From: Hydrogenophaga sp.
GTDB taxonomy: Bacteria; Pseudomonadota; Gammaproteobacteria; Burkholderiales; Burkholderiaceae_C
DNA length: 64,000 bases
NCBI RefSeq assembly: GCF_030651625.1
Contig: NZ_JAUSCF010000022.1
Span: 372,001 to 436,000 of the forward strand
Reading direction: 5' to 3'
Below, piece after piece: positions 5,676 through 63,822 of the stretch; position 1 is the first letter of the stretch; each line of letters opens with the position of its first letter. The position numbers and the translations under genes were made by a program. The notes below the pieces were generated by a model. The model saw only the letters and a program-made list of their open reading frames with translations, made no database searches and had not been told where the DNA came from.

Positions 5676-5903
5676 AAGGATTGGCCCACCCCCGCGCCGC
5701 GCTTCGCGCGTCACCCCCTCGAGGGGGCGATACCAGTCGTCCGGCAAAGCCGGCCCGACGGTATCTCTGGAATGTGGCACTTCGCTCCGGAAGGATTGGC
5801 CCACCCCTGCGCCGCGCTGTCAGCGCGTCACCCCCTCAAAAGGGCGATACCAGTCGTCCGGCAAAGCCGGCCCGACGGTATCTCTGGGATGGGTCATTCC
5901 GCC
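5676..5903 (+). repeat. Dispersed 3' element, copies 1 and 2 (tandem duplication)
   Basis: Two units with a period of about 114 bp, each opening with GAAGGATTGGCCCACCC and holding three hairpins. Copy 1: P1 CGCGC/GCGCG (about 5698-5710), P2 CCCCC/GGGGG (5713-5726), P3 GATACC/GGTATC enclosing CCGGC-AAA-GCCGG (5729-5765). Copy 2 keeps P1 as GCGCT/AGCGC, a compensatory change, and an identical P3, but has a weaker P2. The pair fills the gap between lapB (+) and the convergent 5-oxoprolinase gene, in lapB sense orientation. Confidence 0.9.
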
Positions 5904-5921
5904 CCGGAAGAGATAGCCCAG

Positions 5922-8900
5922 CTATGGTGTGCCATACCCGCCGCCGCCTGGCGTGTGAATTTCGAAGATGTCACCGGGTTTCATTTCGGCTTGACCGATA
6001 TGGGCGAGTTCTTCCATGCGACCGTCGCTGCGCACCACGCGGTTGATCCCTACCTGGCCGGGCTGCCCGCCCGCCATTCCGAAGGCACCGTGCACCCGGC
6101 CGTTGGAGAGGATGCTGGCCGTCATGTCTTCGAGGAATCTGACGCGGCGAACGCCGCCATTCCCGCCTTGCCATCGCCCTTTCCCACCTGATCCGTCGCG
6201 TATTTCGTAGCTTTCCAGCCGCACAGGGAAGCGGAATTCCAGCACTTCCGGATCGGTCAGCCTTGAGTTCGTCATGTGGGTCTGGACCACGCTGGTGCCG
6301 TCGAAACCGTCACCAGCACCGCTGCCACCCGAGATGGTTTCGTAATACTGGTGGGTGGCGTTGCCGAAGGTGAAGTTGTTCATGGTGCACTGGCTGGCCG
6401 CCATGACACCCAGGGCGCCATACAGCGCATTGGTGATGCAGCTCGACGTCTCGACATTGCCGGCCACCACCGAGGCTGGCGGGTTCGGGTTGAGCATGGA
6501 GCCTGCGGGAATGATCACCTTGAGCGGCTTGAGGCAGCCTGCGTTGAGCGGGATGTCGTCGTCCACCAGCGTGCGGAACACGTAGAGCACGGCGGCCATG
6601 CAGACCGCCGTGGGCGCGTTGAAGTTGTTGAGTTGCTGGGCAGAGGTGCCAGTGAAGTCGATCTCGGCATTGCGGGCTTTGGTGTTCACACGGATGGCCA
6701 CGCGGATCTGCGCGCCGTTGTCCAGCGGCAGGGTGAACTCGCCGTCATTCAAGCGCGTGATGACGCGGCGCACCGACTCCTCGGCGTTGTCCTGCACATG
6801 ACCCATGTAGGCCTGCACCACGTCCAGGCCAAACTGGTCCACCATCTTGCGCAGTTCCTGCACGCCTTTTTCGTTGGCGGCGATCTGCGCCTTGAGATCG
6901 GCCATGTTCTGCTGCGGATTGCGTGAAGGGTATTCGCCGCTTTGCAGCAGCGCGATCATTTCGGCTTCGCGCAACGCACCTCGGTCCACCAGCTTGACGT
7001 TGTTGATCTGAACGCCCTCTTCCTCAATACGGGTGGAAAACGGCGGCATGGAGCCTGGCGTGGTGCCACCGATATCTGCATGGTGTCCGCGACTGCCCAC
7101 ATAGAACAGCGGCTTGTCCTGCCCCCCTGCCCCCAGGTACACCGGTGTGATGACGGTCACATCGGGCAGGTGGGTGCCCCCATGGTAAGGGTCGTTGAGG
7201 GCGTACACATCGCCCGGCTGCATCTTGCCCGCGTTCTCGCGGATCACGGTCTTGATGCTTTCGCCCATGGAGCCCAGATGCACCGGCATGTGGGGTGCGT
7301 TGGCGATCAGGTTGCCTTCGGCGTCAAACAGCGCACAGCTGAAGTCGAGCCGTTCCTTGATGTTGACGGAATAGGCGGTGTTCTGCAGCTGCAGCCCCAT
7401 CTGTTCGGCAATGTTCATGAACAGGTTGTTGAACACCTCGAGCAGCACCGGGTCGGCCGTGGTACCAACGGCAAACGACGCATTGCGCGGGATGCGGCGG
7501 TCCAGCACCAGGTGATCGAGGGCGGTGAGCACCGCCTCCCAGCCCGGCTCCACCACCGTGGTGGCGTTCTTCTCCGCAATGATGGCCGGTCCGGGGATCA
7601 CGTCGCCGGGCCGCAGGTCTTCGCGCACCACCAGCGCGGCGTCGAACCATTGGGCGCCCGAATACATGCGAACGGTCTCCCGACGGGGGACTTCGCGTGC
7701 CTCGAAGGTGTCAAAGCGAGGCTCGTCCGGCGCATCGCCTGCGATCACCGCTTCAACCGACACAGCCTCAATCACCAGGCGCTTGCCTTGCATGAGAAAC
7801 GCGAACCGCTGCCGGTAGGCCGCCTCGAATCCGGCCTGTATGGTGGCGAGATCGCCAAACGGTACCACCAGAGCCGCGTCGCTGCCTTCGTAGCGCACGT
7901 GCACCCGGTGGTGGAGGGTCACCGGCCCTGCGCTGACTTGCTGGCTTTCCAGCTCCCGCTGGGCGGTGGCGGCGAGCTTGTCGAGTTGATCGGCGACCAC
8001 CGGCAGCGCAGCTGCATCCAGGGGCAGTTCCACCGCCTGCTCACGGATCACATTCTGGTCGGCGAGGCCCATCCCATAGGCGCTCAACACACCGGCCAGC
8101 GGGTGGACGAACACCCGCGTCATGCCCAGGGCGTCGGCCACCAGGCAGGCATGCTGCCCACCTGCTCCACCGAAACACTGCAGGGTGTAGCGGGTCACGT
8201 CGTAGCCCCGTGCCACCGAAATCTTCTTGATCGCGTTGGCCATCTGCTGCACCGCGATGTTGATGAAGCCTTCGGCCACCTCTTCAGGCTTGCGCCCGGT
8301 CCGTGTCGCCAATTCCTCGAACTTCTCTCGCACGGCGTCGAGGCTGAGCGGCTCGTTGGCACCGGGCCCGAACACTTTGGGAAAGTGGTGCGGCTGGATC
8401 TTGCCGGTCATCACATTGGCGTCGGTGACCGCAAGCGGACCGCCACGACGGTAGCTCGCAGGTCCAGGGTTGGCACCCGCGCTTTGCGGCCCGACGCGAA
8501 AACGCGCACCGTCAAACGCGAGCACGGAGCCCCCGCCTGCAGCCACGGTGTGAATGCTCATCATGGGTGCGCGCATGCGCACTCCGGCGACCTGGGTCTC
8601 GAATTCGCGTTCGAACGCACCCGCGTAATGCGAGACGTCGGTGGAGGTGCCGCCCATGTCGAAGCCGATAACCTTCTCGTGCCCCGCCAGTCCGGCTGTG
8701 CGTGCCATGCCCACGATGCCACCGGCCGGACCGGACAGAATGGCGTCTTTGCCCTGGAAGGCCCTGGCGTCCGTCAACCCCCCAGAGGACTGCATGAAGA
8801 ACAGCTTCACGCCCGGCATTTCACCGGCCACCTGGTCCACGTAGCGGCGCAGGATGGGCGAGAGATAGGCGTCGACCACTGTGGTGTCGCCCCGGCTCAC

Positions 8901-63200: not shown

Positions 63201-63730
63201 TGGTCGGTCAAGTGGCTGCACGCGGCATCGAACTCACGCTGCGCAACGCGCTGGAGCCCTGGCATGTGATGGGTGAAGAAGGGGCGCCAGGCGGCACGGT
63301 GCGCTATGTGGACTCGTCGCTGGAACGCATCGAGGTGCGGGTCAGCGGCTACAACGACAACCGCTATGTCATCACCTGCAACGGCCGCGCCCTGCCCCTG
63401 CAGAGCACGGGTACGGTCGGTGAGTACGTGGCCAGCGTGCGCTACAAGGCATGGAGCCCGCCGTCGGCCCTGCACCCTTCCATTCCATCGCATGCGCCAT
63501 TGACGTTCGACATTGTCGACAACTGGATGCAACGTTCGATGGGCGGATGTCAGTACCACGTGGCCCACCCGGGTGGGCGCAACTACGACACCTTCCCGAT
63601 CAACGCCTACGAAGCCGAGAGCCGGCGTCTGTCGCGGTTCTTCCAGATGGGCCACACCTCGGGCCGCATGACGGTGACGCCAGCCGTTCACAGCAGAGAG
63701 TTTCCTTTCACGCTGGATTTGCGCTATTGA
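60224..63730 (+). CDS. Transglutaminase-like / DUF2126 fusion protein
   Basis: 1168 residues. The N-terminal part (1-270) is a bacterial transglutaminase domain with catalytic triad C180 (GSGSCRDTGW), H229 (DLHAWCEVF) and D245 (WIGLDPT). The remaining 900 residues are the DUF2126 region, including LTMGGEPTYVATADRD, MPPMAHLEDYLDLL, HTGTGGGNHFVMGG and GGCQYHVAHPGGRNYD. The glutamine-synthetase-like HTGTGGGNHF segment suggests ligase-type chemistry, but none is proved. It is part of the predicted ATP-grasp/alpha-E/transglutaminase peptide system. The stop is followed directly by a dispersed-element copy. Confidence 0.92.
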   Translation: MAIHVALSHITHYRYDRLVKLGPQVVRLRPAPHSRTKVLSYSQKIEPGGHFINWQQDPFANYQARLVFPEPTTEFKVTIDLVVEMAVHNPFDFFLEPRAENYPFDYDAAQRQELAPYLVTAPSTGLLDAYLKKIDRSERRTIDFLVDVNQMLQRDIAYTIRMEPGVQTPEETLKLGSGSCRDTGWLMVQILRHMGLAARFVSGYLIQLAPDVKSIDGPSGPEKDFTDLHAWCEVFLPGAGWIGLDPTSGLLAGEGHVPLACTPQPSSAAPVEGAMDKCEVEFSHHMGVTRVYESPRVTMPYTDEQWAGVLALGEKVDADLEAHDVRLTMGGEPTYVATADRDAPEWNTDALGPTKRGYATELLSRMRERYGQGGFVHMGQGKWYPGEQLPRWALSVFWRADGDPCWHNPALLADERDDAHHTSEDAHRFTQALARKLGLSTQYITPGYEDTWYYLWRERRLPVNVDPFDAKLDDELERARLRRVFSQGLEATVGYVLPLQAAVHGGALTSNGKSAYQRVSGTVWSTGPWFFRDERMYLVPGDSPMGYRLPLDSLPWVSAADYPYHIEQDPHTARDPLPRGATTRHQVSPHQVGGGFAEGGTVSMQGVDFDAQGPVVEGLRPGQPGPGSAPAQALSARYPQRSESAAWLTRTALVVEARDPHRSNGPKVEKDMGGKYQHVYVFMPPMAHLEDYLDLLSAVEATAEKLGMAIVLEGYPPPRDPRLKVLQITPDPGVIEVNIHPAHNWSELVDHTEFLYEAAHETRLCAEKFMTDGRHTGTGGGNHFVMGGATPADSPFLRRPELLGSLIAYWHNHPSLSYLFSGLFIGPTSQAPRVDEARNDQLYELEIALKEIEKNRQTYGQDMPPWLVDRTLRNILIDATGNTHRSEFCIDKLYSPDGPTGRLGLLELRAFEMPPHARMSIAQQLLLRALVSRFWQQPWQGKLTRWGTELHDRFLLPTFIRMDFEDVLADLSDFGYAMDMAWFEPHFEFRFPLVGQVAARGIELTLRNALEPWHVMGEEGAPGGTVRYVDSSLERIEVRVSGYNDNRYVITCNGRALPLQSTGTVGEYVASVRYKAWSPPSALHPSIPSHAPLTFDIVDNWMQRSMGGCQYHVAHPGGRNYDTFPINAYEAESRRLSRFFQMGHTSGRMTVTPAVHSREFPFTLDLRY

Positions 63731-63822
63731 ACACCCCTCGCGCCGCCTTCGGCGTCACCCCCCTCAAGGGGGGCGCCAGCAGCGGCCCGGCAAAGCCGGT
63801 TCCGCGCTGGCCCTGGATGGGC
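63731..63822 (+). repeat. Dispersed 3' element, copy 11
   Basis: It starts at the base after the transglutaminase stop. P1 CGCC-TTC-GGCG, P2 CCCCCC-TCAA-GGGGGG, P3 GCCAGC/GCTGGC with CGG/CCG around CCGGC-AAA-GCCGG. It ends CCCTGG. Confidence 0.9.

Follow-up and report, generated by a model that had tools for sequence, protein, structure and literature searches.

The window analyzed here is a 64,000-nt stretch of a Hydrogenophaga sp. genome (assembly GCF_030651625.1, contig NZ_JAUSCF010000022.1, positions 372,001 to 436,000), in which eleven copies of a GC-rich repeat (GC 0.69–0.78), folding as three hairpins (P1, P2, and P3), lie at the 3′-ends of genes such as dctP and parE. The repeat is real and widespread, structured and mobile, and its placement is unusually strict, on the sense strand and next to a stop codon. 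The eleven copies were aligned and folded (25 base pairs, ten with at least one double change), and the covariance model built from this alignment, R1, gives exactly eleven matches in the window at E≤0.01 (77.9–98 bits). Since R1 was trained on all eleven copies, their matching is by construction; the absence of a twelfth copy is not. A preliminary description, made from the letters of the window, had listed the same eleven copies in eight places. These correspond to nine gene ends, with copies 8 and 9 serving two convergent genes. The copies and one example of the P3 module are as follows, with R1 scores.

Copy 1: 5686..5771, + strand, 28 nt 3′ of the stop of the lapB-like gene 4512-5657 (gene name from NCBIfam); 94.3 bits
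Copy 2: 5801..5888, + strand, head-to-tail tandem with copy 1; 82.7 bits
Copy 3: 16417..16498, + strand, in the dctP/dctQ gap (Pfam DctP/DctQ), overlapping the dctP stop by 1 base (distance −1); 91.0 bits
Copy 4: 27093..27174, − strand, in the parE/parC gap (family searches), 2 nt 3′ of the parE stop; 89.9 bits
Copy 5: 30693..30791, + strand, with an enlarged P3 tip (+12 alignment columns), 8 nt 3′ of the small open reading frame (ORF) 30562-30684; 77.9 bits
Copy 6: 45156..45239, + strand, overlapping the end of the ring hydroxylase alpha subunit ORF 44027-45232 (Pfam); 90.3 bits
Copy 7: 45240..45323, + strand, tandem with copy 6 (7 nt from the ORF stop); 96.4 bits
Copy 8: 52718..52803, + strand, 165 nt 3′ of the stop of the kinase gene 49994-52552 (NCBIfam, matches mostly below cut-off), facing copy 9; 79.9 bits
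Copy 9: 52835..52913, − strand, 2 nt 3′ of the stop of the ZIP-transporter gene 52916-53731 (Pfam); 80.7 bits
Copy 10: 55941..56022, − strand, 24 nt 3′ of the stop of the ATP-grasp gene 56047-57483 and before the Alpha-E gene 54925-55887 (Pfam); 98.0 bits
Copy 11: 63732..63817, + strand, 1 nt 3′ of the stop of gene 60224-63730; 91.6 bits
P3 module of copy 11: 63775..63811, + strand, fixed length of 37 nt, outer stem GCCAGC...GCTGGC, gapless in sequence

All eleven copies are in the sense orientation to the preceding gene, as had been described; copy 8, which had been placed about 190 nt from its stop codon, was measured at 165 nt. Ten of the copies are 79–88 nt in length and copy 5 is 99 nt. 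The identities of the dctP/dctQ, parE/parC, and ATP-grasp/Alpha-E pairs, inside which copies had been reported, are backed by family searches (Pfam, NCBIfam), the parE label being the top NCBIfam match yet below its cut-off. No Rfam family reaches its gathering score in the window (0 matches), and the weak matches below that score were taken as chance.

Placement and structure across the genome

The whole genome (4.27 Mb in 39 contigs) contains at least 150 R1 matches, the weakest having an E-value of 1.9e-8. Gene context was examined in the window and 99 stretches (0.65 Mb; of 101 planned stretches, L138 and one other are not included), which hold 209 matches at E≤0.01; 208 are distinct, one copy having been recorded twice (window 63732 and L064), and 172 score at least 60 bits. 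Three of the latter lie inside called genes and three are without a neighbor, leaving 166 copies for analysis, with genes defined by a home-made gene caller. Both neighbors of these copies are known, and 158 lie on the strand of the gene before them. The strand is non-random, and one of the two outcomes that the preliminary description had named as refuting it did not occur. The stop-to-element distance has a median of 6 nt (quartiles 2 and 10 nt), and 123 of the 166 fall between −5 and 15 nt from the stop, where 18 would be expected by chance (maximum 32 in 2000 draws of random place and strand within the same gaps). Gaps between co-oriented genes carry 122 sense versus 4 antisense copies, with 4 copies in divergent gaps and 36 in convergent ones. 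In a tally of all 208 copies, six convergent gaps contain a facing pair in which each copy is sense to the gene next to it; no gap shows the opposite arrangement, and in two of the six one copy is weak (31–38 bits). Head-to-tail tandems (++ or +++) occur in 18 of 167 occupied gaps. The stop codons preceding 109 first copies are TGA (70), TAG (22), and TAA (17), while those of well-scored genes in the same DNA are TGA (403), TAG (57), and TAA (49). Genes upstream of copies have a codon score of 0.325 against 0.286 in the others (p 5e-6), a difference that was not used as evidence and in which the others include partial and falsely called genes. So strict a placement suggests either a role or a means of insertion at gene ends.

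The P3 module spans 37 nt and has, from the outside inward, stems of 6, 4, and 5 bp closed by an AAA-type triloop. One nucleotide on the 5′ side separates the outer from the middle stem, and a 1×2 internal loop separates the middle from the inner stem. In the architecture proposed earlier the middle stem had three base pairs; this is corrected to 4 bp. The module is found without gaps in 166 of the 172 copies scoring at least 60 bits (133 distinct sequences), which were anchored by the inner hairpin alone, the outer stems not being fitted. Canonical pairs account for 93% of the P3 pair cells, and for 90% of those in the outer stem against 32–34% when this is slid by one position. A tree-aware covariation test, similar to R-scape but not R-scape itself (FastTree tree built from the same columns as those tested, parsimony changes re-dealt along the branches, 300 nulls), reveals six significant column pairs at E<0.05, namely (1,35), (8,29), (9,28), (2,34), (13,23), and (3,33), all of which are P3 base pairs; the remaining nine pairs are not significant, and several of them hardly vary. 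The covariation exceeds the tree-aware null, so that the second refuting outcome did not occur either, and selection on structure, which the preliminary description had deduced from compensating outer stems, is supported. The first predicted pair lies approximately 9 nt inside the R1 model.

Within P3, the 1×2 internal loop (positions 11, 25, and 26) changes as a block (C..TT, T..CC, A..AT) and stays non-Watson-Crick, a pattern that is not significant in the tree test. Two further structural candidates were rejected: a fourth hairpin (CTGGA/TCCGG) in the 3′-tail, of which all five pairs are present in 28 of 166 tails and which hardly varies, and an asymmetry of the P2 arms, discarded because the 5′ arm had been picked by its C content.

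Surviving orthologous copies retain the P3 stems. In 25 pairs between the host genome and the related genome G332, the stems are changed at 22 of 750 positions (2.9%) and the triloop at 11 of 75 (14.7%), compared with 7% for other unpaired P3 positions, 5.5% for P1–P2, 14.6% for the tail, 335 of 1581 (21.2%) for the spacer, and 656 of 2313 (28.4%) for third codon positions. The way in which the pairs were chosen inflates the difference between the stems and the tail or spacer (both outside the model), and to a lesser degree that between stems and loop. These pairs are the 25 of 34 places with a P3 in which its identity was at least 0.85, and their flanks are approximately 82–96% identical. When orthologous P3s were sought by the flanking gene alone and filtered by their pairs and core, those in 15 places had kept 220 of 225 canonical pairs, two hits with 10 of 15 pairs (G319 at locus B and G300 at locus E) being discarded as chance. 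At locus C this search returned none in ten readable genomes, yet a copy is present in G305 and a decayed one, judged by eye, in G300.

Distribution, known repeats, and turnover

Within the host's family, R1 has matches at E≤1e-3 in 206 of 299 genomes, spread over 112 of 141 genera. An order-wide draw gave a match in 15 of 399 genomes, eleven belonging to the same family, three to family f4, and one to family f3. Both surveys used strict filters with few candidates scored per genome, and these figures are therefore lower bounds. A pattern scan of named genomes includes, among the matches listed, Bordetella petrii, Bordetella sp., a metagenome-assembled genome labelled B. parapertussis, Achromobacter, Pigmentiphaga, Rubrivivax, Methylibium, Piscinibacter, Caldimonas, and others. 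Twelve scanned genomes hold 7 to 145 matches (150 candidates scored in each), the counts at E≤1e-3 in four Bordetella-named genomes being 37, 15, 24, and 7. The placement rule is followed by 65 of 67 copies in one genome set, in which 12 of 82 loci gave no clear orientation, and by 38 of 46 in named genomes, including 8 of 8 in Bordetella-named ones; the named set comprises 33 of 80 listed stretches, chosen by one exact pattern, with 52 of 53 R1 matches entered. Facing copies approximately 155–172 nt apart were seen in Pigmentiphaga (L319, L338, L356, L357, L385, and L393) and in Alcaligenaceae SAGV5 (L383), the arrangement to be expected if each of two convergent genes has its own copy.

The repeat most probably corresponds to one already published, the Beta-proteobacterial repeat element (BRE; Hot et al. 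2011, PMC3110155), to which it is likened by described features and not by its letters. BRE is characterized as an intergenic, tandem repeat of approximately 90 bp and 69% GC found in Bordetella, Polaromonas, Delftia, and others. The published length range (75–91 bp) takes in ten of the eleven window copies, copy 5 exceeding it, and the published GC range (63.7–78.9%) takes in all eleven. Both repeats are intergenic with overlap of ORF ends, both form head-to-tail tandems of variable number (copies 1-2 and 6-7 in the window), and both are found in Bordetella and in Comamonadaceae, if the host's family is taken as Comamonadaceae in the wide sense. Of the 13 loci in Table 3 of PMC3110155, not one is situated between divergent genes, as the stop-codon rule predicts. 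By contrast, the available passages of that paper give no structure, stop-codon rule, or empty sites, and they suggest no function, which is congruent with the preliminary description, whose author knew of none. The paper reports a transcript of 70–80 nt, bprJ, from the strand opposite both neighboring genes, noted here alongside the more stable antisense fold of the host's copies. At lexA, where BRE forms a tandem (BP1793-lexA), R1 gave 0 matches in 30 lexA stretches of a 43-genome genus (g225) that is probably not Bordetella. A search of the open literature, subscription papers being outside its scope, turned up no subsequent study of how the repeat folds, of its orientation rule, or of its function, and nothing on these subjects appears in the available passages of PMC3733652, PMC12306157, PMC12320835, PMC9426467, and PMC2817692.

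Repetitive extragenic palindromic (REP) sequences and bacterial interspersed mosaic elements (BIMEs) are likewise short palindromic intergenic repeats, and in E. coli some REPs come within 15 nt of a stop codon; here, however, three hairpins occupy approximately 84 nt, tandems are head-to-tail, and orientation is nearly sense-only. The hallmark of REPs mobilized by REP-associated tyrosine transposases (RAYTs) is a palindrome of 20–40 nt tagged GTAG or CGTC (PMC3733652), while the present copies are of 79–88 nt with three hairpins and show, by eye, no unpaired GTAG or CGTC tag at their ends. The only Y1_Tnp (RAYT-like) gene of the host genome has no copy within 1.5 kb. Among the family genomes, 222 of 299 have a Y1_Tnp match, and by hand count these include 55 of the 65 genomes with at least 15 R1 matches versus 167 of the remaining 234, a slight excess that may reflect genome size or an old link. 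Ten element-rich genomes are without Y1_Tnp among the matches listed (G011 and G020, each listed with 0, and G098, G118, G143, G171, G199, G232, G273, and G281, which are not among them), which indicates that a RAYT is not needed today; as a necessary mobilizer it is not supported, although, given the slight excess, it may play some part.

Gain and loss were followed by searching two pieces of the window, each just under 20 kb, in 40 genomes of the genus, the host's own included. Between dctP and dctQ the element is present in 7 of 20 relatives, in one of them decayed (G320), and absent from 13; the two genes are separated by only 0–36 nt in 11 of the 20, and by 76 and 105 nt of other sequence in G333 and G315, respectively. 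The parE-parC gap contains it in 3 of 27 relatives, with a gap of 4–34 nt in 15 and 724–1130 nt of other DNA in nine. At the ATP-grasp site G302 and G327 possess the element, and G307, G312, G325, and G334 have only 2–26 nt compared with 159 nt in the host genome; behind gene 60224-63730 it occurs in 3 of 23 readable relatives (G332, G208, and G322). The lack of the element at orthologous sites of many relatives, often with near-abutting genes, indicates that copies come and go. At parE the P3s of G301 and of G300 differ in subfamily from that shared by the host genome and G305, as if elements had arrived at, or been exchanged behind, a single stop codon more than once. By eye, two G332 alleles appear to be deletion-like, with P1 and the tail, or the tail alone, left behind. 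Target-site duplications are unconvincing, since flanking direct repeats average 3.51 nt, and 200 shuffles gave 3.15 nt with a maximum of 3.70; copy 5, though, has ATGGAACAC on both sides.

Candidate roles of the repeat

We lean, with somewhat less than even confidence, toward a mobile folded repeat of approximately 80–110 nt, most likely BRE, whose RNA would block 3′–5′ exonucleases at the mRNA end. A copy would enter, or survive, directly 3′ of a stop codon in the sense orientation and be transcribed with the gene, so that P1, P2, and P3 would follow the terminating ribosome at a distance of a few nucleotides. Exonucleases trimming from Rho-dependent or read-through 3′-ends would stop at P3 or P2, and the upstream coding region would be protected, also inside operons. 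In favor of this are the sense placement close to stops, in the host and in other genera, the facing copies in convergent gaps, the covarying P3 pairs, the conservation of stems in orthologs, and the rarity of TTTT behind P3; transcription within the mRNA, the block itself, and the means of mobility are inferred.

Several observations weigh against an exonuclease block. Were the sense RNA the selected strand, G-U mispairs should clearly exceed A-C mispairs. The counts are 51 versus 37 in the host's copies and 41 versus 25 elsewhere, where a single column pair contributes 24 of the 41 and the selection of sequences had treated G-U as paired; a sense-RNA signature is thus not clearly seen. Of 100 copies, only 4 fold more stably as the sense strand, with RNA and likewise with DNA parameters, the mean RNA folds being −41.6 (sense) and −46.1 kcal/mol (antisense). 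There is, then, a tension between a placement that is nearly always sense and a structural signal that is not clearly so. Furthermore, many species manage without a copy at the same gene, 8 of the 46 copies in named genomes are exceptions to the placement rule, and decayed copies are under-sampled in the G332 comparison, for which most stretches were taken around R1 matches and pairs were admitted by P3 identity.

The exonuclease block is nevertheless favored over a targeted selfish element, an explanation that is possible but somewhat unlikely, in which an enzyme would insert copies strand-specifically at gene 3′-ends, where they do least harm, and the hairpins, as folded single-stranded DNA or RNA, would serve mobility and not the host. 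The empty orthologous sites, the different subfamilies behind parE (host genome/G305, G301, and G300), the range of 4 to 145 R1 matches per genome, the lack of a clear sense-RNA bias among mispairs, and the slightly greater frequency of Y1_Tnp in element-rich genomes are all consistent with this. Orthologs, however, keep stems better than loop, tail, and spacer, which would be unexpected of an idle sequence unless turnover is fast, and no mobilizing gene was found, the lone Y1_Tnp gene being without copies nearby. Among the roles entertained in the preliminary description, whose observation is confirmed and whose interpretation is partly supported, a mobile palindrome thus gains support from the empty sites, whereas selection on sense mRNA lacks a clear signature.

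A broader and likewise somewhat unlikely proposal is that of a class of stop-codon-seeking mobile elements, non-autonomous and moved by an enzyme through a transcription- or translation-coupled route, which would settle immediately 3′ of stops in the sense orientation and constitute an exchangeable mRNA 3′-end part across Burkholderiales, repeatedly placed at the same genes. If the placement rule reflects function, more than 100 genes per genome, in parts of a large and environmentally important group, share a 3′ part ignored by annotation, and operon expression there cannot be read without the element. If it reflects targeting, an insertion mechanism that recognizes both gene ends and strand awaits discovery. 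In either case, a published repeat without a function becomes testable through its structure, placement rule, and empty sites.

Modulation of translation termination, whereby a stable structure no more than 15 nt from the stop would slow the ribosome and lower or uncouple expression, appears improbable. According to earlier work cited in PMC12306157, translation is lowered by E. coli REPs located that close to a stop, and the 123 of 166 copies within −5 to 15 nt would suit such a role; but with the first pair some 9 nt inside the model many folds begin beyond 15 nt, and second tandem copies and copy 8 lie outside that distance. Transcription termination, intrinsic or Rho-associated, is more improbable still. 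Like intrinsic terminators, the repeat presents GC-rich hairpins 3′ of stop codons on the sense strand, and it occupies 33 of 71 convergent gaps, in DNA that had been chosen around copies. It differs in having three hairpins, in its frequent location between co-oriented genes (122 of 158 sense copies, including those in dctP-dctQ and parE-parC), and in lacking a T-tract: TTTT occurs within 20 nt behind P3 in one of 166 copies, and within 60 nt in 32 compared with 22.7 in shuffles. The T-tract result accords with the preliminary description, whose argument against a simple terminator is supported. Least probable is an element acting as DNA, a cruciform or protein-binding site, which the nearly equal mispair counts and the greater stability of the antisense fold would fit but which leaves the strict sense orientation (122 versus 4 in co-oriented gaps) unexplained.

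Neighboring sequences

Copy 6 supplies the predicted C-terminal tail of the ring-hydroxylase protein, as the ORF reads through 45156-45232 and stops near the 3′-end of the copy. The small ORF 30562-30684 preceding copy 5 has 40 codons, ends in ..WSCF, and can be recognized by eye in the 24 relatives compared at that place. The enlarged P3 tip of copy 5 (30753-30771) carries CCTGAGCTTGTCGAAGGGC, which we take to be a separate repeat of many bacteria; other copies of at least 94 nt were noted alongside.

In several element-free relatives, the region 3′ of the orthologs of gene 60224-63730 (L500, L503, L505, L507, and L508) exhibits another hairpin-like motif, CCTTGTGTGA..GCAACAAGG, and the element may have replaced a native 3′ structure there. 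A second GC-rich repeat family, of the CGCTGCGCGGGTCGCTGCCCCCC..GCCGCCTTCGGGCGGC type, is also located at gene ends; in G314, G321, G311, and G309 (L175, L179, L180, and L184) it lies directly 3′ of an MFS stop codon and before a small ORF, and window positions 45335-45400 perhaps, by eye, represent the same repeat.

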